Part shown: positions 2,992 through 10,451 of the stretch, piece by piece
Layout of the letters: every line of letters begins with the position of its first letter
How positions within the stretch are numbered: the stretch's first letter is position 1
NCBI RefSeq assembly: GCF_002210165.1
Contig: NZ_AQQP01000006.1
Span: 62,001 to 126,000, forward strand
Reading direction: 5' to 3'
DNA length: 64,000 nt
DNA from: Phaeobacter sp. 22II1-1F12B
GTDB taxonomy: Bacteria > Pseudomonadota > Alphaproteobacteria > Rhodobacterales > Rhodobacteraceae
Program-made: the position numbers and the translations under genes
The notes under the pieces: model-generated
Seen by the model: only the letters and a program-made list of their open reading frames with translations
Database searches by the model: none
What the model was told of the DNA's origin: nothing

Positions 2992-3444
2992 ATGAGCGAT
3001 CTGCCTACCGCCCAAATCCTGCACCGCCACGGCGCGTGGAACACGGCTGGCGACACCTGCACTCTTAGCTATGACGACCGTTTCCTGCGGCGCAAAGTTC
3101 TGGAAACCAGCGCGGGCAAACGCTTTCTGGTCGATCTCGAACACACGGAATCGCTCGATCACGGCGACGCGCTTGAGCTGAATGACGGGTCGCTGATCGA
3201 AGTGCAGGCCGCCGCCGAAGAGCTGCTTGAAGTAACGGGCGATGATCTCGTCCGTCTCGCCTGGCACGTGGGCAACCGCCATACCCCTTGCCAGATCGAG
3301 AAAGACCGCCTGCTGATCCAGCGCAACCACGTGATGCAGGATATGCTGACCCTTCTGGGCGCCACGCTGCGCGAGGTGGTCGAGCCCTTTACGCCCGAAG
3401 GCGGCGCTTATGGCCACGGTCGCACACACTCGCATGAGCACTGA
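2992..3444 (+). CDS. ureE: Urease accessory nickel-delivery protein UreE
   Basis: Nickel metallochaperone that passes Ni(II) to the UreDFG complex bound to apo-urease. It is 150 residues long. The N-terminal part (SYDDRFLRRKVLETSAGKRF, LVDLEHTE) is the peptide-binding fold. GDDLVRLAWHVGNRHTPCQI is the conserved metal-binding region, including the dimer-interface histidine of the HVGNRH type. The C-terminus ends in a short histidine-rich tail ([10 protein letters not shown]), typical of nickel-storing UreE. I placed the start at 2992 (MSDLPTAQ) after a GGGG element; an upstream in-frame ATG at 2929 would add 21 non-conserved residues. It overlaps ureF by 11 bases. Confidence 0.95.
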   Translation: MSDLPTAQILHRHGAWNTAGDTCTLSYDDRFLRRKVLETSAGKRFLVDLEHTESLDHGDALELNDGSLIEVQAAAEELLEVTGDDLVRLAWHVGNRHTPCQIEKDRLLIQRNHVMQDMLTLLGATLREVVEPFTPEGGAYGHGRTHSHEH

Positions 3445-4087
3445 CACACCGGACGTGATGCTGACGCTGGCGCAATGGTTTTCTCCAGCTTTCCCTATCG
3501 GTGCTTTCAGCTTTAGCCATGGGCTGGAATCGCTTGTTGAGACAGGCGAAATCCGTTCCGCAGAGGATGTTGAGGCCTGGCTGAACTCGGTGCTGAACTA
3601 TGGCGCGGGGCGCAATGATGTAATTCTGATGGCCGTGTCGTTCCGCGCGTCCTCCAAGGACGAGATCAGGGAAATCGACGCGCTCGCCCGGGCCCTGTCG
3701 CCCTCCAAGGAACGTCTGCTCGAAACCGAGGTGCAAGGCGAAGCCTTTATCCGCACGATCAACGAAGTCTGGGGCAGCGAACTGCCAGCTCTTTGCTATC
3801 CGGTGGCCATCGGGGCATCCGCCCGGGCCTGCGGCATGCCGCTGCGAGAAACGGCCTGCATGTATCTTCACGCGCTGACCAGCTCACTCGTTTCCGCGGC
3901 AATCCGCGTCGTGCCGCTTGGCCAGACCGAAGGGCAAAGCATCGTTCGCCGCCTTGCCCCCCTCTGCGATGAACTTGGGTCGGGCTACATTGATGAATCG
4001 CTTGAAGCCATCGGCTCAAGCAGTTTCATTGGCGATATCGCGTCGATGACGCATGAAGACCAATATTCGAGGATGTTCCGCTCATGA
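3434..4087 (+). CDS. ureF: Urease accessory protein UreF
   Basis: Scaffold protein of the UreDFG activation complex, proposed to gate the UreG GTPase during nickel loading. The protein is 217 residues from the ATG at 3434, close to the family norm, and is all-helical. The family signature [17 protein letters not shown] is at about residues 16-32. The start at 3434 (MSTDTPD) overlaps the ureE stop by 11 bases, and the stop overlaps ureG as ATGA. Translational coupling of ureE, ureF and ureG is therefore likely. An alternative in-frame start is at 3410. Confidence 0.95.
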
Positions 4088-4695
4088 GTTCAAATCACGG
4101 CCCCCTGCGCATCGGTATCGGCGGCCCGGTCGGTGCCGGAAAAACGACGCTCACCGCCGCCCTTTGCGCCGCGATGCGCGATGATTTTTCTGTCGCGGTC
4201 ATCACGAACGATATCTACACGCAGGAAGATGCCGAAGCCCTGATGCGGCTTCAGGTTCTGCCGCTGGACCGGATCATGGGCGTGGAAACCGGCGGTTGCC
4301 CACATACGGCTATCCGCGAAGATGCGTCGATCAACCTTGCCGCGATTGCCCGGATGCGCGAAAGGCATCCAGATCTGGATGTCGTGCTAATCGAATCCGG
4401 TGGCGATAACCTGTCGGCGACCTTTTCCCCGGAACTGGCCGACTTGACCATATACGTGATCGACGTGGCTGCAGGCGAAGAGATTCCCCGCAAAGGCGGC
4501 CCCGCCATCACCAAGTCCGACATTCTGGTCATCAACAAGACCGATCTGGCCCCCCATGTCGGCGCGTCGCTGGAAGTGATGGAACGGGACAGCATCAAGA
4601 TGCGCAAAGAGCGACCGTTTTTCTTTGCCTCCCTGCGCAAGCAGGACGGCCTTGATGCGATTGTCCAATCAATCCGGGAGATTGGCGGTCTCTAG
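4084..4695 (+). CDS. ureG: Urease accessory GTPase UreG
   Basis: SIMIBI-class GTPase that powers nickel insertion into urease, 203 residues, cytoplasmic. The P-loop GPVGAGKT is at residues 14-21. The metal-binding region ([16 protein letters not shown]) is at about 75-90, with the CPH nickel motif intact. [16 protein letters not shown] is the switch II region, and [12 protein letters not shown] gives the NKxD guanine specificity motif. The start overlaps the ureF stop by 4 bases. It is the last gene of the urease operon in this window. Its TAG (4693-4695) directly abuts the stop of the convergent response-regulator gene, leaving no intergenic base. Confidence 0.98.
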
Positions 4696-5133
4696 TCAGG
4701 CGATTGCGTCGACGATATCCGGAAAGGCCGCCCGGTAGATCTGATAAAGTTCTTCTGCGCCCGCCGCATCCAGTGGCTTTTCGATATACCCCCTCACCAG
4801 CGAAAACGAGGCGGCTGCCGCCTTGTCCTTGGGATTGCCCGAGGAGGTAAACATCATCACGACCACGGCCTGAGGGGCGACCCCCAGCTTTTGCCGCTTT
4901 TCGAATTCGGCGATGGTTTCGAACCCGTTGCGACCGGGCATGTTGATGTCGATCAGGATCAACAGCGGCCGGTCAGGCTGCAAGCCATTCTTTTCATTGC
5001 AATATTTTTCGAGAAACTGATCGCCAGAGGCCACTTCAACGACCTCGTCGAAACCGCCGTGCTTGTCGAGCCGGCGCTTGGCCGTGTACCTGTCTACAGT
5101 TTCATCATCGATAACCATAACCGGTATCTTCAT
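4696..5133 (-). CDS. Single-domain response regulator
   Basis: A stand-alone receiver domain of about 145 residues with no output domain. The acidic pocket (MVIDDE, near residues 9-11), the phosphoacceptor Asp in LILIDINMPGRNGFE (about 62-63) and the Lys in GYIEKPLD (about 117-119) are all present. It resembles Rcp1-type regulators that pass phosphate onward or regulate by protein contact. The start is the second of two adjacent ATG codons (5133) because the GGAGG site is too close to the first (5136). It overlaps or abuts the stop of the PAS kinase gene, so the two are translated together and form a likely kinase-regulator pair. Confidence 0.9.
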   Translation of the reverse strand: MKIPVMVIDDETVDRYTAKRRLDKHGGFDEVVEVASGDQFLEKYCNEKNGLQPDRPLLILIDINMPGRNGFETIAEFEKRQKLGVAPQAVVVMMFTSSGNPKDKAAAASFSLVRGYIEKPLDAAGAEELYQIYRAAFPDIVDAIA

Positions 5134-6572
5134 CATTCCTCCCTTTCCTCCAGTGGAATTAGAAAACTGAATTCCGTGCCCTGCCCTTCGACGCTGTGAA
5201 CCGAAATCGCGCCGCCAAGCCGTTCGATCTGTTTGCGCACCAACGCGAGGCCGACACCCTCATTGCTTAGCTCATCGAACCTTGAAAAATAGGTAAAGAC
5301 CCGCTGCAGGTTACCGCCGGAAATACCGCGCCCATTATCGCCCACAACCATCTGCAACTGATTGTTTTCCCGCCGACTTGAGATTCTGATCACATGAGAT
5401 GGTTTCTCCGGGTCGCCATAGCGCAGAGCATTCGACAACAGGTTGGCAAGTATCATGTTCACCGCGGCGCGCTCGAGGTTGACGATATCGCCATGGCGAA
5501 GATCAAATTCCAGTACCGCGCCCGCAGACCCAACGGACCGCAAACTACGCCAGATCTCTACGATATCCGCGCGCAGTGAAAACCTTTCCTTGTGCAACTT
5601 GGCCTGGCCTGCCTGTGCAAGTTCGATGATTTTCTCCACCTTGCTGGCGTTGGAACGGCTGATTAGCAGCGCTTCTTCAAGGTTTTTCTTCAACTCGTCG
5701 GTGTCGCCAGCTTCGAGATCCTCGAGACAAAGGCTCAGCAAGCCTTCGATTGAACATAACGGCGCCTTGAGATCGTGACTGGCGCTGTTGGCAAAGGCCG
5801 AGAGTTCCGCGTTAAGCTGCTCAAGCTCTTTCGCTTTCTGAGAAATTTCCGTTCGGGTCGCCACGTGCTCGGTCAGATCGACGATCGTGCACATGATCTC
5901 GGCGTCCACCTCGTTGACAGGCGTCAGCACGATTTCGATCGGGATTTCATGCCCTTCCTTGTGAACAGCGGTTACCTTGCTCTTCCGACCCATCGCGCGG
6001 GGTTTCATCACCTTGCCGAATTCGGCCCGGTAATCTTCGTGATGTTTCTTGAGCCTGCTGGGAACAAGCTGGTCCACACACATCCCGATCAGGCTGCCAA
6101 CATCATACCCCAGCAGCCCACCCGCCGCGCGGCTTGCAAACCTGATCGCCCCCTTGGCATCACACATAATGATGGCACTTGCCGAAGCATCCACAATATC
6201 GCGAAAATTTTGCGAAGAAGGGCCAGGCGACTCCCCTTGGCTGAGCGCAATGCAATAAGAAACCGCCGCGTTCTGTTCCGAAGGCGCGCGGAGGATGGAA
6301 ACGACAACGCTCCGGCCATCGGTCGTTTTGCTGGATTGCTTGAGCGATGCGTCTGGTGGGGGTGTACTAAGTACGGCATGGCCGAGTGCCGGGTTGCTTT
6401 GCCCAAGGGTTACGTCCGCAAGCAAGCTAACGAGCGGTTTGCCCTCAATCTCCGACCGGGGCATGTCCAGCAGTTCAGCGGCCATCGAATTGCATTCTGT
6501 CACAATTCCCGTCTCTGAAACGAGTAAGGCTGGAGCCGGAAAGTGATCGATAGACAGCAGTGTCGGCGACAT
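5133..6572 (-). CDS. Soluble PAS sensor histidine kinase
   Basis: A 479-residue histidine kinase with no membrane segment, so it senses cytoplasmic cues. Two PAS-like regions (about 1-100 and 122-240; the second reads ASASAIIMCDAKGAIRFASR) are followed by a short coiled coil. The H-box SASHDLKAPL has His at about 266. The ATPase domain follows, with N-box NLLSNALRYG, G1 box VVGDNGRGIS and G2 box GVGLALVRKQ. I chose 6572 because GAGGT lies 6 bases upstream; an ATG at 6605 has a poor site. It is co-transcribed with the downstream receiver gene. No cofactor-binding residue (heme, flavin) can be assigned with confidence. Confidence 0.9.
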   Translation of the reverse strand: MSPTLLSIDHFPAPALLVSETGIVTECNSMAAELLDMPRSEIEGKPLVSLLADVTLGQSNPALGHAVLSTPPPDASLKQSSKTTDGRSVVVSILRAPSEQNAAVSYCIALSQGESPGPSSQNFRDIVDASASAIIMCDAKGAIRFASRAAGGLLGYDVGSLIGMCVDQLVPSRLKKHHEDYRAEFGKVMKPRAMGRKSKVTAVHKEGHEIPIEIVLTPVNEVDAEIMCTIVDLTEHVATRTEISQKAKELEQLNAELSAFANSASHDLKAPLCSIEGLLSLCLEDLEAGDTDELKKNLEEALLISRSNASKVEKIIELAQAGQAKLHKERFSLRADIVEIWRSLRSVGSAGAVLEFDLRHGDIVNLERAAVNMILANLLSNALRYGDPEKPSHVIRISSRRENNQLQMVVGDNGRGISGGNLQRVFTYFSRFDELSNEGVGLALVRKQIERLGGAISVHSVEGQGTEFSFLIPLEEREE

Positions 6573-6695
6573 ATCGGGACCTCGGCCCGAAGAAGAATTC
6601 TTCATTCTTCAAGCGATAAGAGCTATTGCAGATCAGCCCGCCGGTCGCTCTTCCATCTTTCATGCAAGAGCCGTCTTCGAAACCCGGTTGGGTCT

Positions 6696-7391
6696 TTAAT
6701 GCCGAAATTCCTGTCGGCGCGACACCGTGTGAGGATCAAGCAGCAATGACCACAGTTTGATACACTGACGCTCAATGTTCTCCAGTTCACCCGGAACATT
6801 TGCCTCTTTATCCGGAAGCGCCGATCTCAGGCTTCTCATATCGCGAATAACCCGGGCCAATTTTGGCTGCAGCGCGTTTGTATATTTAGCCATAATAACG
6901 GAAGTTACCTGTTCAATTTCCGATTGCACCAGCGCGTCGATTCCGGCGTTCTTCGCAGCACTATTAATTGCCCCCATAATGCTGGACTTTAAAGTCTCCG
7001 GAGTCATTTCATCCTTGGTGAGGTAATCTTCGCACCCCATCTTCAAAGATTTGACCGCGACATCCGATTTATCGTCACCGGTAACCATGATCGTCGGGCA
7101 AGAACCGTTCACATCATGGTTCCGAATCACTTGAAGCGCCTCGATCCCGTCGCCTTGGGGAAGATTGAAATCAATGAGGATCACATCGAAACGCTCCTGA
7201 TCCAATGCTTCATGCAAGCCCTCGATCGAAGCTGTTTCATCAAGCGTTATTCCCAATGCGGTATCATCACTGAGACGACGGATGCGACGACGGTCAAAGA
7301 CGCTGTCGTCCAGAATAAGAGCTTTGATTCCCGGCTCGGGGCACGGGGCCTTGACGGTAACAGTTTCAATTTCTTGAATATTCTGCTTCAT
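6696..7391 (-). CDS. Response regulator with helical C-terminal domain of unknown function
   Basis: A 231-residue protein. The receiver spans about residues 22-145: acidic pocket ILDDS (28-29), phosphoacceptor Asp in ILIDFNLPQGDG (about 74), Thr in MVTGDD, and Lys in DYLTKDEM (about 126). The Lys is followed by Asp rather than the usual Pro. The roughly 85 C-terminal residues look alpha-helical and match no DNA-binding output domain I recognise. It is a clear paralogue of the regulator at 8519-9178, sharing the DDxxFDRRRI block and the AVxxLKxGCxDxL block. Ribosome site AAGGGAGT precedes the ATG. It is divergent from the kinase at 7627. Confidence 0.88.
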   Translation of the reverse strand: MKQNIQEIETVTVKAPCPEPGIKALILDDSVFDRRRIRRLSDDTALGITLDETASIEGLHEALDQERFDVILIDFNLPQGDGIEALQVIRNHDVNGSCPTIMVTGDDKSDVAVKSLKMGCEDYLTKDEMTPETLKSSIMGAINSAAKNAGIDALVQSEIEQVTSVIMAKYTNALQPKLARVIRDMRSLRSALPDKEANVPGELENIERQCIKLWSLLLDPHTVSRRQEFRH

Positions 7392-7626
7392 ATCTACTCC
7401 CTTCGATAAGGTATGGCCGACAGGATATGCGCCCCATGACGTGGGAACCTAGCTGTAAACCGGTTACCCATTGGTGAAATACGATCACGCATATTGCGAA
7501 AACTTTTAGGATTTTTGAAAACAGTAGTGATTCGATATCGTTTTATAAACGCCGGAATGCCAACTTAAGGATCCGTTAGGTCAAAAGCGCTACGAAGCCC
7601 GAGCTTAGCATGATCAAGGATACACG
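7392..7626. promoter_or_regulatory. Divergent promoter region between RR and HK genes
   Basis: A 235-base region separating the minus-strand response regulator (start 7391) from the plus-strand kinase (start 7627). It is clearly more AT-rich than the surroundings (for example ACTTTTAGGATTTTTGAAAA near 7501-7520), as expected of promoters. I could not assign a specific sigma-factor motif, and found no convincing palindrome. Confidence 0.5.
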
Positions 7627-8376
7627 ATGTCTCTGCCAGAAAGAAAAGTGGATACGAATACGTCGGGCGTTGTTTCAATTGAAAATGCCGCACAGGAATT
7701 CGAGGATTTCATTTATTTAGTGAGTCATGACGTACGGAATTCCGTGCGCGCGCTTCTCGAACTTCCCCAATGGATCGAAGAAGATATCAGGGATGCCGGG
7801 CTGCCAATTTCCGAATCTCTCGCCGGAAACATCGAACTGATGAACACCCATACGCGGCGCCTGGATCGGATGCTGATCGACCTTCTGGTCTATTCGCGGA
7901 TCGGGAGAATGCAGGAATCCGTTCAATTGGATTGGAATACTGTCATTGACACGACCCTTGACCAGGTGCCCGTGCCGCAGGGTTTCGAACTTACGAGGGA
8001 GATCCATTCGCCGACTATTTTCCTCGGCGAACATGATGCGCTGACCTTGGTATCTTCGCTTCTCTCCAATTCGATAAAGCATCACGACAGTGAAACCGGT
8101 TTTATCAAGATATCCACCCACGACACGCCGCAGGGTCCGGTTCTGTCCGTCTGGGACGACGGCCCCGGTATTCCGCAAAAATCAAGAGAAAAAGTTTTCG
8201 AGGTCATGACTACTCTGAAACCCCGGGATGAAATCGAGGGCAGCGGTATGGGTCTGGCCAATGTCCGCAAGATCGCGAACCTTTACAAGGCGCAGATTGA
8301 ATGGCTCCCCACCGACGATACGCGAGGCACCCGCATAGCGATCAGATTTCCAAAGTCCTGTCGGACAGCTGGCTAG
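7627..8376 (+). CDS. Small soluble histidine kinase without sensor domain
   Basis: A 249-residue kinase consisting only of a dimerisation/phosphotransfer region and an ATPase domain. The H-box FIYLVSHDVRNSVRALLELP has His at 34. ATP-binding boxes follow: SLLSNSIKHHD, SVWDDGPGIP and GSGMGLANVRKIANL. The H-box resembles phytochrome-family kinases (SHDLRxPLR), but no PAS, GAF or membrane region precedes it. It must therefore receive its signal through a partner protein. AAGGA lies 6 bases before the ATG. It is followed by a regulator gene in the same direction and is divergent from that regulator's paralogue. Confidence 0.88.
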   Translation: MSLPERKVDTNTSGVVSIENAAQEFEDFIYLVSHDVRNSVRALLELPQWIEEDIRDAGLPISESLAGNIELMNTHTRRLDRMLIDLLVYSRIGRMQESVQLDWNTVIDTTLDQVPVPQGFELTREIHSPTIFLGEHDALTLVSSLLSNSIKHHDSETGFIKISTHDTPQGPVLSVWDDGPGIPQKSREKVFEVMTTLKPRDEIEGSGMGLANVRKIANLYKAQIEWLPTDDTRGTRIAIRFPKSCRTAG

Positions 8377-8518
8377 AGATATTCGCGGCTCCGCAGATTG
8401 CTCGGTGGAAAGTTTATTAAAACCTTCCATACGCGCATCATCCCCACCCCGGCGAAATTAACGAAATCCGGATCGTTGCCGGTTACGATCGGTCTGGGTG
8501 ACAATGCGGGGGTCGCAA

Positions 8519-9178
8519 ATGACAGACACTTCCACGATCAATCCATCGCCAGAGCGTAAAGCTGTACATGCGCTCCTGCTCGACGATGACGAATTTGACC
8601 GGCGGCGCATCTGCCGGATGAGCGATGGGCTGGGTCTTCCCATTACGATGCATTCTGTTCCGACGCTGGAAACGATGGAACGGTCCATGCAGGAAAACGC
8701 CTATGACCTTGTGCTGGTGGATTATCGGCTGGCCGATGGTGACGGTTTTTCGGCGTTGGACATGGTTCAGGCGAGCAGCAAGAACCGGAATGCCGCGACC
8801 ATCATGATCTCTGGAAACGGACAGATTGAGCTGGCAGTCGCGGCACTGAAAGCCGGTTGCAGTGACTTTTTGCCGAAACAGGATATCTCGCCCGAAAGCC
8901 TGCGCACCGCGATCCTGCAGGCGCTGGCCAGCCGTGTTCAGCAGTACAACCCCGAAATGCTGAAACGCGAGGCTGAACGTGCACTTATTGCAGCCCTACG
9001 TGACGACAGCTTTCGTCAGTCTCTGCGCCCCACCATGATCGCAGCAATGTCCGAAGCGGCGCAGGCAATCGCGCGCGAGAAACGACAGGAAAAGCACGCG
9101 CACCTGACCGGTTATCTCATGGAGTTCACCAAGGACGATGACTTTTGCTTTCAGACCGGCCCCCTGCGAAAGACGTAA
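8519..9178 (+). CDS. Response regulator, paralogue of the one at 6696-7391
   Basis: A 219-residue receiver protein: acidic pocket LLLDDDEFD (22-24), phosphoacceptor Asp in LVLVDYRLADGDG (about 68), Ser in MISGNG where Thr/Ser is expected, and Lys in DFLPKQD (about 120) followed by Gln instead of Pro. The C-terminal 85 residues are charged and probably helical (KREAERALIAALRDD, AQAIAREKRQEKHAH), with no DNA-binding motif. I chose the ATG at 8519 because GGGGG lies 6 bases upstream; GTG 8498 and ATG 8504 are alternatives. It lies 142 bases after the kinase gene. Confidence 0.88.
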   Translation: MTDTSTINPSPERKAVHALLLDDDEFDRRRICRMSDGLGLPITMHSVPTLETMERSMQENAYDLVLVDYRLADGDGFSALDMVQASSKNRNAATIMISGNGQIELAVAALKAGCSDFLPKQDISPESLRTAILQALASRVQQYNPEMLKREAERALIAALRDDSFRQSLRPTMIAAMSEAAQAIAREKRQEKHAHLTGYLMEFTKDDDFCFQTGPLRKT

Positions 9179-9263
9179 TCCAGTCTGAAAGAACGCATCC
9201 CCGGCAAGACAACAGCTTCCAAAGCACAAGACCCAAACGGCGCCAAGTCTATTCCCGCAATAG

Positions 9264-10451
9264 CTACGCGGGAACGGTCGAGCGCCCTTGGCGCTGGAAG
9301 AACAAATAGACCACGACCGCGGTTACCACGAGCATGATTGCCGCCACGCCAAAGGTGCCCTCATAACCGAAAGCCCCGACCATCGGCATGCTGAAGATCG
9401 GCGAAATGAACTGACCAAGGAAGATGCTGGTGGTGATCGCGCCCGAAACAAGACCCCGGTGCTGCGCAGGCGCTGCGTCAAGCGCTACGGCAAAGAAAGT
9501 GGGCATCGTCAGGCCAAAACCTGCACCGATGAACAGCGCTCCCAGATCAATCAGGGCCATGCTATGCACCCAGTCCAGCAAGCCAAACCCGCAGGCCATC
9601 AAAAGAAAACCGCACGCCGGCGTCAGCCCATGCCCAAGGCGGGCGTGGATGCGTCCGAAGGCGAGCGCCGTCGCGCCCCCCGCGAGCGTCACCATCGCAA
9701 GAACCTGCGCCGGGGCAGAGGCGCTGTCGAAACCGATGGTCGCGAGGTAGAACGGGATCTGCGTCGGCACGACGTAGAACACGACAAAGCTGAGCGCCGA
9801 AAGGGTGACGATGACCATCAGCGTCAGAACCCATCCCGTAGACCCGGAATTTTCGCCCGCGACCTCCGGGCCGGTGGATGCCTTGGCAACCGGGTCCTTC
9901 ACCGTGAACCAGAGATAGGGGAAGATGATCGCCCCAAGCGCGTAGATCAGGAAAGGCAGGCGCGGCGACATGCCCGCAAGAAAGCCCGACAGGGCGATAA
10001 AGGCAAACCCGCTGAAATTGACCACGGCAATCTGCAGCCCCATGAACTTGCCACGCGCTTCACCGTCGAAATAATCACCGATGAGAGCGGCCTGCCCCGT
10101 CATCACCAGTGCAACCGAAAGCCCAAGGAACAGGCGGCTGATAAGGATGGTTTCGAGGCTCGGCAAAAGCGTCCCCGCGCAGCCCGCCAGCGAAAACAGC
10201 AAGGCGCCGACCAGAATCTGCCGCCGACGGCCAAAGCGGTCCGCAACCATACCAGCGAAGGGCGCAAAGAACGCCACGAGCAGCGAGGGTGCGGTGACCA
10301 GCAGCCGGGTCATCAGTTCCGCATTGGGATTGTCCGGAAAGCTCGCCTGCAACCCGGGCAGCGCCGGGCTGATGATCGTATTGGACAGAATGGTAAGCGA
10401 TGCCGCCAGCAACAATGCGACGGCCCGTGGATCTTTAAAGAACGCGAGCAT
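9264..10451 (-). CDS. MFS transporter (12-TM, drug/metabolite efflux type)
   Basis: A 395-residue major facilitator with about 12 hydrophobic segments. The cytoplasmic loop motif between TM2 and TM3, GMVADRFGRRRQI, is the classic MFS motif A (GxxxDRxGRR). The TM5 region (ALVMTGQAALIGDYFDGEARGKFMG) is like DHA1-type antiporters and sugar-efflux permeases. The substrate cannot be read from sequence. The gene stands alone, convergent with the upstream regulator cluster and divergent from the GntR gene at 10834. The start at 10451 (MLAFFKDPRAVA) has only a weak ribosome site. Confidence 0.85.
   Translation of the reverse strand: MLAFFKDPRAVALLLAASLTILSNTIISPALPGLQASFPDNPNAELMTRLLVTAPSLLVAFFAPFAGMVADRFGRRRQILVGALLFSLAGCAGTLLPSLETILISRLFLGLSVALVMTGQAALIGDYFDGEARGKFMGLQIAVVNFSGFAFIALSGFLAGMSPRLPFLIYALGAIIFPYLWFTVKDPVAKASTGPEVAGENSGSTGWVLTLMVIVTLSALSFVVFYVVPTQIPFYLATIGFDSASAPAQVLAMVTLAGGATALAFGRIHARLGHGLTPACGFLLMACGFGLLDWVHSMALIDLGALFIGAGFGLTMPTFFAVALDAAPAQHRGLVSGAITTSIFLGQFISPIFSMPMVGAFGYEGTFGVAAIMLVVTAVVVYLFFQRQGRSTVPA

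Follow-up and report, generated by a model that had tools for sequence, protein, structure and literature searches.

A conserved histidine kinase with tailed response regulators as a candidate CtrA-coupled two-component module of Rhodobacteraceae and Roseobacteraceae

In Phaeobacter sp. 22II1-1F12B, a stretch of 64,000 nucleotides (the window; contig NZ_AQQP01000006.1, positions 62,001 to 126,000 of the forward strand) carries a small histidine kinase without a sensor domain, HK2 (7627-8376, plus strand, 249 residues), flanked by two response regulators, RR1 (6696-7391, minus strand, 231 residues) and RR2 (8519-9178, plus strand, 219 residues from its ATG, with a GTG at 8498 as a possible alternative start). 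Our favoured reading, held with somewhat less than even confidence, is that these genes represent a branched two-component module of the Rhodobacteraceae and Roseobacteraceae that signals by protein contact and is coupled to the CtrA relay. The chemistry and folds of the module are those of two-component systems. HK2 would autophosphorylate on H34 (codon 7726-7728) and pass the phosphate to both flanking paralogous regulators, at D74 of RR1 and D68 of RR2. RR1 would comprise a receiver, one continuous helix and a two-helix hairpin descended from the dimerisation and histidine-phosphotransfer (DHp) domain of a kinase, minus its phospho-acceptor histidine and catalytic domain. Phosphorylation of the RR1 receiver would alter helix pairing, as in receiver-controlled kinases, and the hairpin would then homodimerise or pair with a kinase DHp domain or a partner receiver. 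RR2 would use its helical tail, with the acidic F-x-F at its tip, to relay the signal to a partner, and a TTAA-N7-TTAG box in the promoter common to RR1 and HK2 would probably couple transcription to the CckA-ChpT-CtrA phosphorelay. The gene content and its conservation, the intact receiver and kinase motifs, the tail classes and the box enrichment can be read from the sequences themselves. Phosphotransfer, the DHp origin, the partners and CtrA binding we infer.

The conserved unit is the HK2-regulator core and not the five-gene island (4696-9178) in which it lies here. A first census, made by scanning named genomes with one peptide pattern, gave at least 62 loci, and in most of those from Rhodobacteraceae and Roseobacteraceae the small kinase adjoins a tailed regulator. 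Profile searches then used cut-offs of at least 123 bits for regulators and at least 144 bits for HK2-family kinases, and their counts are lower bounds (best 9, 9 and 28 candidates per genome for regulators, kinases and tails, respectively). They found at least 58 regulators in at least 43 of 295 family genomes. Among the matches listed, a small HK2-type kinase lies within 1.5 kilobases (kb) of 36 of the 58 regulators (33 by open frames of at most 350 residues; two in genome G297, with a kinase of 252 residues from its first start; one in G075, with an unconfirmed 459-residue frame), an HK2-family kinase lies within 4.5 kb of 45 of the 58, and of 38 small kinases, 30 lie no more than 1.5 kb from a regulator. 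Kinase and regulator share a strand in Sulfitobacter and are divergent in Heliomarina, Seohaeicola, Arenibacterium, Silicimonas and others. Regulator-HK2-regulator triples occur in eight genomes (the window; loci L064, L094, L080, L069 and L100; genomes G212 and G297), and the full five-gene block in three only, namely the window, Heliomarina baculiformis (L064) and Arenibacterium halophilum (L094). The sequence-only reading, made from this DNA before our analysis, had named a lack of conservation of the block in related genomes as one result that would refute it; the block itself is rare, and the widely conserved unit is the kinase accompanied by a tailed regulator or by two of them. In a 240-genome sample of the class, which included three or more genomes from the family, two genomes outside the family had matches below 1e-30, with frames of 386 and 415 residues.

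This conservation bears on one alternative explanation, namely that these are ordinary two-component genes in decay with no coherent function. The tails are variable and lost in some relatives, and such regulators are known from only 43 of 295 family genomes (a lower bound), as decay would have it. However, the catalytic residues of kinase and receiver are kept across genera, and in the closest relative found with the same locus, H. baculiformis (G001), the frames are open and RR1 and HK2 are 96% and 95% identical to those of the window. We therefore regard decay as very improbable.

The receivers of RR1 and RR2 are 38% identical over 130 residues (E value 1e-34), and outside them the two proteins align in one further segment only (21 residues, E 1.6). 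Both carry the acidic pair, phospho-acceptor Asp, Thr/Ser and Lys of response regulators (D28, D29, D74, T104 and K126 in RR1; D22, D23, D68 and K120 in RR2). Their description as paralogous regulators is supported, and their receivers look competent for phosphorylation. In RR1 numbering, all 52 family members aligned have D74 and K126, all 52 also have D29 and D33, and 51 have D28; the counts for D28, D29 and D33 are partly circular because the 52 were drawn mostly from a scan with the pattern L[VLI]LDD[DS]x[FV]DR, which contained those letters. In a recount on 30 regulators found by profile, 19 of them absent from the 52, the new 19 keep D29 and D33 without exception, D28 in 18 and R34 in 14 (Gln in five), and the 30 as a whole keep D33 in every case and R34 in 25. 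Proline after the conserved lysine occurs in none of the 52, none of the new 19 and none of the 30, compared with 29 of 30 other receivers of the same genome; these comparison receivers lean to ordinary ones because they were the best-scoring 30 of 49 PF00072 matches. The loss of Lys-Pro in RR1 and RR2 is thus confirmed. Asp33 is absent from all 30 comparison receivers (9 gapped), which upholds the claim that the DDxxFDRRRI block is unusual; the block is not exclusive to RR1 and RR2, in that RR0, the single-receiver regulator of the island, also has Asp-Arg there. The alpha-1 helix reads FDRRRIRRLSD in RR1 and FDRRRICRMSD in RR2. At the T104 position, 38 of the 52 have the Thr/Ser conserved in receivers and 14 have Ala instead, and Ala likewise takes its place in 11 of the 30 profile-found regulators.

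Neither RR1 nor RR2 is a single-domain, CheY-like receiver, as both have conserved tails of 80-90 residues. The sequence-only reading gave both regulators one unassigned C-terminal domain. We find instead two unrelated conserved tail types here and a third elsewhere. In RR1, whose receiver covers about residues 22-145, the class A tail is a helix followed by LExIExxCxxLW, in which E207 and W214 hardly vary across 18 rows. In RR2, the class B tail ends in an acidic stretch and then F-x-F (DDDFCF, residues 206-211; 9134-9151, plus strand), with both Phe present in 13 of 13 rows. The third class has an SDEPxxFK-like ending (L040, L053, L056, L057). Treating tails A and B as one domain was rejected (hhalign E 0.18). 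Tail class, labelled by patterns written from the tails, follows the receiver tree far better than chance (for A and B alike, none of 500 label shuffles gave so low a value), and neither class A nor class B forms a single clade; the clade mates of RR1 in class A come from Seohaeicola, Pseudooceanicola and Arenibacterium. Both tails are predicted by AlphaFold2 to be helical, as had been supposed, with helices at 131-191 and 201-218 in RR1 (mean predicted local distance difference test 83.6, predicted template-modelling score 0.60) and at 125-142, 145-161, 163-192 and 194-204 in RR2, where confidence is low at the end. Pfam and NCBIfam searches of the five proteins of the island, and Pfam searches of the tails, returned no tail domain and only weak unrelated matches (ANC1_spectrin, RRF, TraM). 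A profile search of this kind had been proposed as the way to expose a known output domain, and it gave no strong match to one. A DNA-binding role was rejected, since the tails match no recognised DNA-binding domain, in agreement with the earlier reading. The N-terminus of FliM, which binds CheY, was considered as a possible counterpart of class B tails, SPAEIDALISGF among them, and rejected.

We consider it probable, on the strength of profile comparisons, that the RR1 tail is a degenerate HisKA-type DHp hairpin (about residues 157-218; 6738-6923, minus strand) with N172 (codon 6876-6878) in the place of the catalytic histidine and no catalytic domain. A class A tail profile run against 198 family genomes found at least 20 regulator rows and at least 25 others, and 22 of the 25 others are histidine-kinase DHp domains. 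The catalytic histidine falls at model position 33, equivalent to N172, in all 22, a placement that assumes an ungapped stretch from the alignment start to the histidine. None of the 198 genomes gave a match to the profile in reversed form. Using hhalign, the RR1-tail profile aligned in the same register with 22 HisKA domains of the same genome over 68 columns (score 22.3, E 9e-4, probability 23%), compared with scores of 13.7 for the reversed profile, 7.1 for class B, at most 13.5 in 100 column shuffles and at most 16.5 in 100 shuffles of seven-column blocks. These domains had been chosen regardless of the tail: from 38 PF00512 matches, 30 were fetched and 8 dropped for failing an H-box pattern that requires proline. 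A comparison with HE-type DHp domains gave E 4.2e-5 (reversed 0.043, class B 0.23), and is not relied on, as the set included kinases chosen as matches; one tail-search pool likewise included loci picked as matches, and weight is placed only on its reversed and shuffled controls. Foldseek ranked the receiver-helix kinases 6oaq and 6oap and LvrB (8vc9), a kinase of receiver, DHp and catalytic domains (REC-DHp-CA), at the top for RR1. Like receiver-histidine kinases (REC-HK), RR1 has a receiver that runs into a continuous signalling helix (131-191). It lacks their phospho-acceptor histidine, which is found in one of 15 class A rows (L068), and their catalytic ATP-binding domain, ending at residue 231 with no HATPase match.

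Several results weigh against this origin. In Pfam, no tail row matches HisKA even at E 1, and among PDB sequences the class A tail matches no DHp domain up to E 10, its best match having E 0.17. The hhalign comparison with HK2-type DHp domains is not significant (E 0.11), and that with REC-HK DHp domains is weak (E 0.26, which became 0.0056 once more tails were included). We place the probability no higher because the Pfam, PDB and HK2-type comparisons failed. The 22 kinase matches also reflect few independent events, because most look like orthologues of one TctE/QseC-like kinase; by eye, L153 and L152 are different kinases from the majority, L153 presumably PhoR-like. Two non-kinase proteins (L224 and L225) score like the kinase matches, and the VIA-align rows cover chiefly residues 19-152. 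The last of the three matches outside the 22, in G117, consists of a 41-residue frame at the end of a contig, which the histidine-position check did not recover. Two receivers outside the family, L219 and L220, gave DHp matches of E 0.39 and 1.5, that of L219 out of register. Finally, the tail is dispensable in L095, its near copy L096 (Amylibacter cionae) and L097 (Neptunicoccus), because the kinase occurs there with a 158-residue regulator whose receiver has no tail. A short Novosphingobium regulator (L088) was left out as evidence of tail loss, being probably a frameshift of a near-identical protein, that of Pararhodobacter (L090). As the L088 kinase is also in pieces, contamination is one reading of that locus, and transfer with frameshift errors another. 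A further short regulator, of 142 residues, is that of L105.

These results can also be taken to mean that the tails are new output domains for a target outside two-component signalling, such as an enzyme, an anti-sigma factor or a scaffold, and that the likeness of RR1 to a DHp domain is hairpin convergence. The lack of a Pfam match and of a significant PDB sequence match for class A fits this idea, as does the class B profile, which in the 198 genomes matched class B regulators only (4 genomes) and whose best PDB sequence matches are designed helical proteins (E 0.006 upward). There is also a precedent in LvrC, the target of LvrB, which is a receiver with an anti-sigma domain (PMC13269768). 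However, the class A tail matches kinases in one register with clean reversed and shuffled controls, and the gene neighbourhoods indicate no common target. The five largest clusters of shared non-signalling neighbours (14-17 loci each) are confined to Sulfitobacter loci and therefore look like genus synteny. On balance we think it unlikely, at about one chance in four, that the tails are outputs of this kind.

HK2 itself has the sequence motifs of a two-component histidine kinase. Pfam HATPase_c matches it at E 3e-18, HisKA falls under the cut-off, and H34, N148, D177, G179, G181, G205, G207 and G209 are invariant across 29 aligned sequences, HK2 included; the H-box histidine and the N, G1 and G2 boxes of histidine kinases are all present. 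Beyond the small kinases, its closest relatives are kinase cores of large frames (760-1687 residues, 31-36% identity), and its DHp sequence type resembles that of phytochrome-type kinases. Neither HK2 nor the PAS kinase of the island has a membrane segment, as stated from the sequence alone, because their top 19-residue Kyte-Doolittle means (0.86 and 1.18, respectively) are low compared with 2.66 for the neighbouring transporter. That RR1 and RR2 share HK2 is only consistent with the data, by virtue of their near-identical alpha-1 helices and the triples in eight genomes. The service of both regulators by HK2 is so far a proposal, which counts against the branched module.

The same arrangement may instead be a phosphate-sink pair, in which the two regulators are rivals for the phosphate of HK2, one acting as output and the other as sink, and the tails are mere dimerisation coils of no special origin. 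Sinorhizobium CheY1 and CheY2, where one kinase serves two receivers and one of these is a possible phosphate sink, offer a parallel, although the kinase there is of the CheA type and the receivers have no tails. One kinase with two paralogous receivers of nearly the same alpha-1 helix, unrelated class A and class B tails, and three relatives without tails (two of them near copies) are what a sink would lead one to expect. On the other hand, the conservation of the tails by class, E207 and W214 in A and F-x-F in B, exceeds what a generic coil needs, and many genomes have only one regulator beside the kinase. We consider the sink a possible explanation, to which we would give a little less than one chance in three.

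The remaining genes of the island raise the question of how far the module extends. All five genes coincide with open reading frames found in the window at the positions first given for them. RR0 (4696-5136, minus strand, 146 residues) is a lone CheY-like receiver with an ordinary Lys-Pro (Pfam Response_reg E 3e-14), and its gene overlaps by 4 bases that of a soluble PAS histidine kinase (5133-6605, minus strand, 490 residues; Pfam HATPase_c, PAS in two stretches, and HisKA), its presumed partner. Above the Pfam cut-off, the regulator proteins RR0, RR1 and RR2 contain Response_reg only. HK2 and the PAS kinase may belong to one network, with RR0, RR1 and RR2 sharing both kinases in a hub-like relay. 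Pairs of a kinase with a single receiver are found repeatedly next to the module (window, L064, L094, L023, L104), and larger clusters lie beside it in L024, L067, L068, L072, L098, L108 and L109, as such a relay would predict. Against this, the RR0 alpha-1 helix is unlike those of RR1 and RR2, and 13 of 16 Sulfitobacter loci have no other kinase or receiver of the profiles used. A shared network thus strikes us as unlikely, at roughly one chance in five.

Some loci of wider composition were also seen. In L024, L108, L109, L112, L119 and L121, a large sensor kinase, a small Rcp1-like receiver and a receiver-kinase or receiver-hybrid stand beside an RR1/RR2-type receiver. In the cyanobacterium Okeania (L106, L107, L110, L111, L115, L117), DR-type receivers head long proteins of several domains, with frames of 1050-1465 residues, and a phytochrome-like kinase lies nearby. 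Kinases and regulators of the Cph1-Rcp1 type are among the known systems nearest to the module; HK2 differs in having no photosensor. A third family regulator in the window's genome (L026, 4816-5721; G000:C33:174989-175681) has no HK2-family kinase of at least 144 bits within 4.5 kb, and its neighbours look, by translation, like an M23 peptidase and a bactofilin. In G117, a class A tail fragment (C27:531892-531993) lies at a contig end and a kinase with a class B regulator at the end of contig C7; the assembly has probably divided a single triple here. In the window, the island is bordered by what we take from translations to be ureF/ureG urease accessory genes (3410-4695) and a major facilitator superfamily transporter (9264-10451).

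RR1 and HK2 diverge from a gap of 235 base pairs (bp), which carries the CtrA-like box TTAAGGATCCGTTAG at 7565-7579 (plus strand), 47 bp before the HK2 start codon. The same TTAA-N7-TTAG occurs in L064, L065, L066, L080, L094 and L100. For Dinoroseobacter, TTAA-N7-TTAAC has served as the CtrA consensus (PMC4046655), and for Rhodobacter sphaeroides, CtrA sites with 6-bp spacing and one site common to divergent promoters are described (PMC6180460). Allowing at most one mismatch, TTAA-N7-TTAA is present in 19 of 34 module promoter regions and in 18 of 119 control regions taken from the remaining intergenic sequence of these loci (Fisher 4.6e-6), and without the window and L064 it is present in 17 of 32 (Fisher 2.5e-5); the module regions are longer than the controls (mean 248 and 184 bp), and related genomes are not independent. 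Dinucleotide shuffles of the module regions gave a mean of 2.1 and a maximum of 11 regions with the box. Other spacings from 2 to 15 gave 1 to 6 module regions each, except N6 with 11, and the control regions show no N7 peak (N6 17, N10 19). A first version of the test had used 38 regions and mononucleotide shuffles; for the 34, limits were set by hand and four regions were dropped, namely the HK2-RR2 gap of the window, L099 (41 bp), L096 (near copy of L095) and L025 (same contig as L108). Among six further module regions, L067, L068 and L072 have the box, and L101, L081 (108 bp) and L097 (120 bp) do not.

The genome encodes CtrA (435.9 bits, cut-off 350). With a box in the promoter, albeit with one mismatch, and a CtrA gene in the genome, the module is probably under CtrA control, as far as promoter sequence can tell. 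This conclusion is weakened by that mismatch to TTAA-N7-TTAA, by the occurrence of the box in the 18 control regions, and by our having noticed the window box before the enrichment test was made. The signal is also uneven, with the box in 13 of 18 promoters outside Sulfitobacter and only 6 of 16 within it, a 17th Sulfitobacter promoter (L101) also being without. Scans for a sigma-70 promoter and a terminator in the divergent promoter found none, and an Rfam scan of 4600-9300 gave no match.

How RR1 might work can be judged from known receivers that act together with kinase helices. In Caulobacter, DivL with DivK is a DHp-bearing pseudo-kinase working with a receiver, as we propose for RR1; DivL is a large PAS protein without a receiver of its own. 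The Leptospira kinase LvrB resembles RR1 more closely, with an N-terminal receiver, a continuous helix and a helical hairpin, and with a spacing from phospho-acceptor Asp to histidine position of 105 residues (D56, H161) compared with 98 in RR1 (D74, N172); unlike LvrB, RR1 lacks the histidine and the whole catalytic domain. In LvrB, receiver phosphorylation leads the central helices to form a coiled coil (PMC13269768), and this switching is the model for the RR1 helix. Osp of R. sphaeroides is, like RR1 and RR2, a receiver-type protein of the Rhodobacterales; it has CtrA-box control, as is probable for them, and works by contact with a kinase transmitter (PMC9430884). However, Osp has 120 residues, lacks the two acidic residues and the Lys and was not phosphorylated, whereas RR1 and RR2 keep these residues and have tails, and the available text mentions no kinase gene beside osp (PMC9430884). 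An identification of RR1 or RR2 with Osp was rejected, given their intact acidic pocket and Lys.

A bolder version of the branched module would make RR1 a receiver-driven decoy kinase. With the RR1 receiver phosphorylated, the dead DHp hairpin of RR1 would pair with the HK2 DHp domain or capture the RR2 receiver, so that the kinase would be throttled by its own substrate and the circuit wired into the CtrA phosphorelay in bacteria lacking DivK and full-length DivL. We regard this as improbable, less so than decay of the genes but more so than any other alternative weighed here.

We did not find in open-licence literature this family of tailed regulators, its association with a kinase lacking a sensor or the probable make-up of receiver plus dead DHp domain, which is weak evidence of novelty but leaves the earlier suggestion of an undescribed system in place so far. 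The combination of a receiver and a pseudo-DHp domain in RR1, if true, would be a type of regulator that we did not meet in that literature, and a DHp origin would show a kinase reduced to a receiver-controlled pairing module. In Rhodobacterales, the CckA-ChpT-CtrA relay operates with a short DivL and no DivK (PMC9430884), and new receivers that contact kinases are wanted there. The conserved kinase, its tailed regulators, the CtrA-like boxes and the possible dead DHp domain thus make up a set of genes that can be tested in culturable Sulfitobacter, Heliomarina and Arenibacterium.

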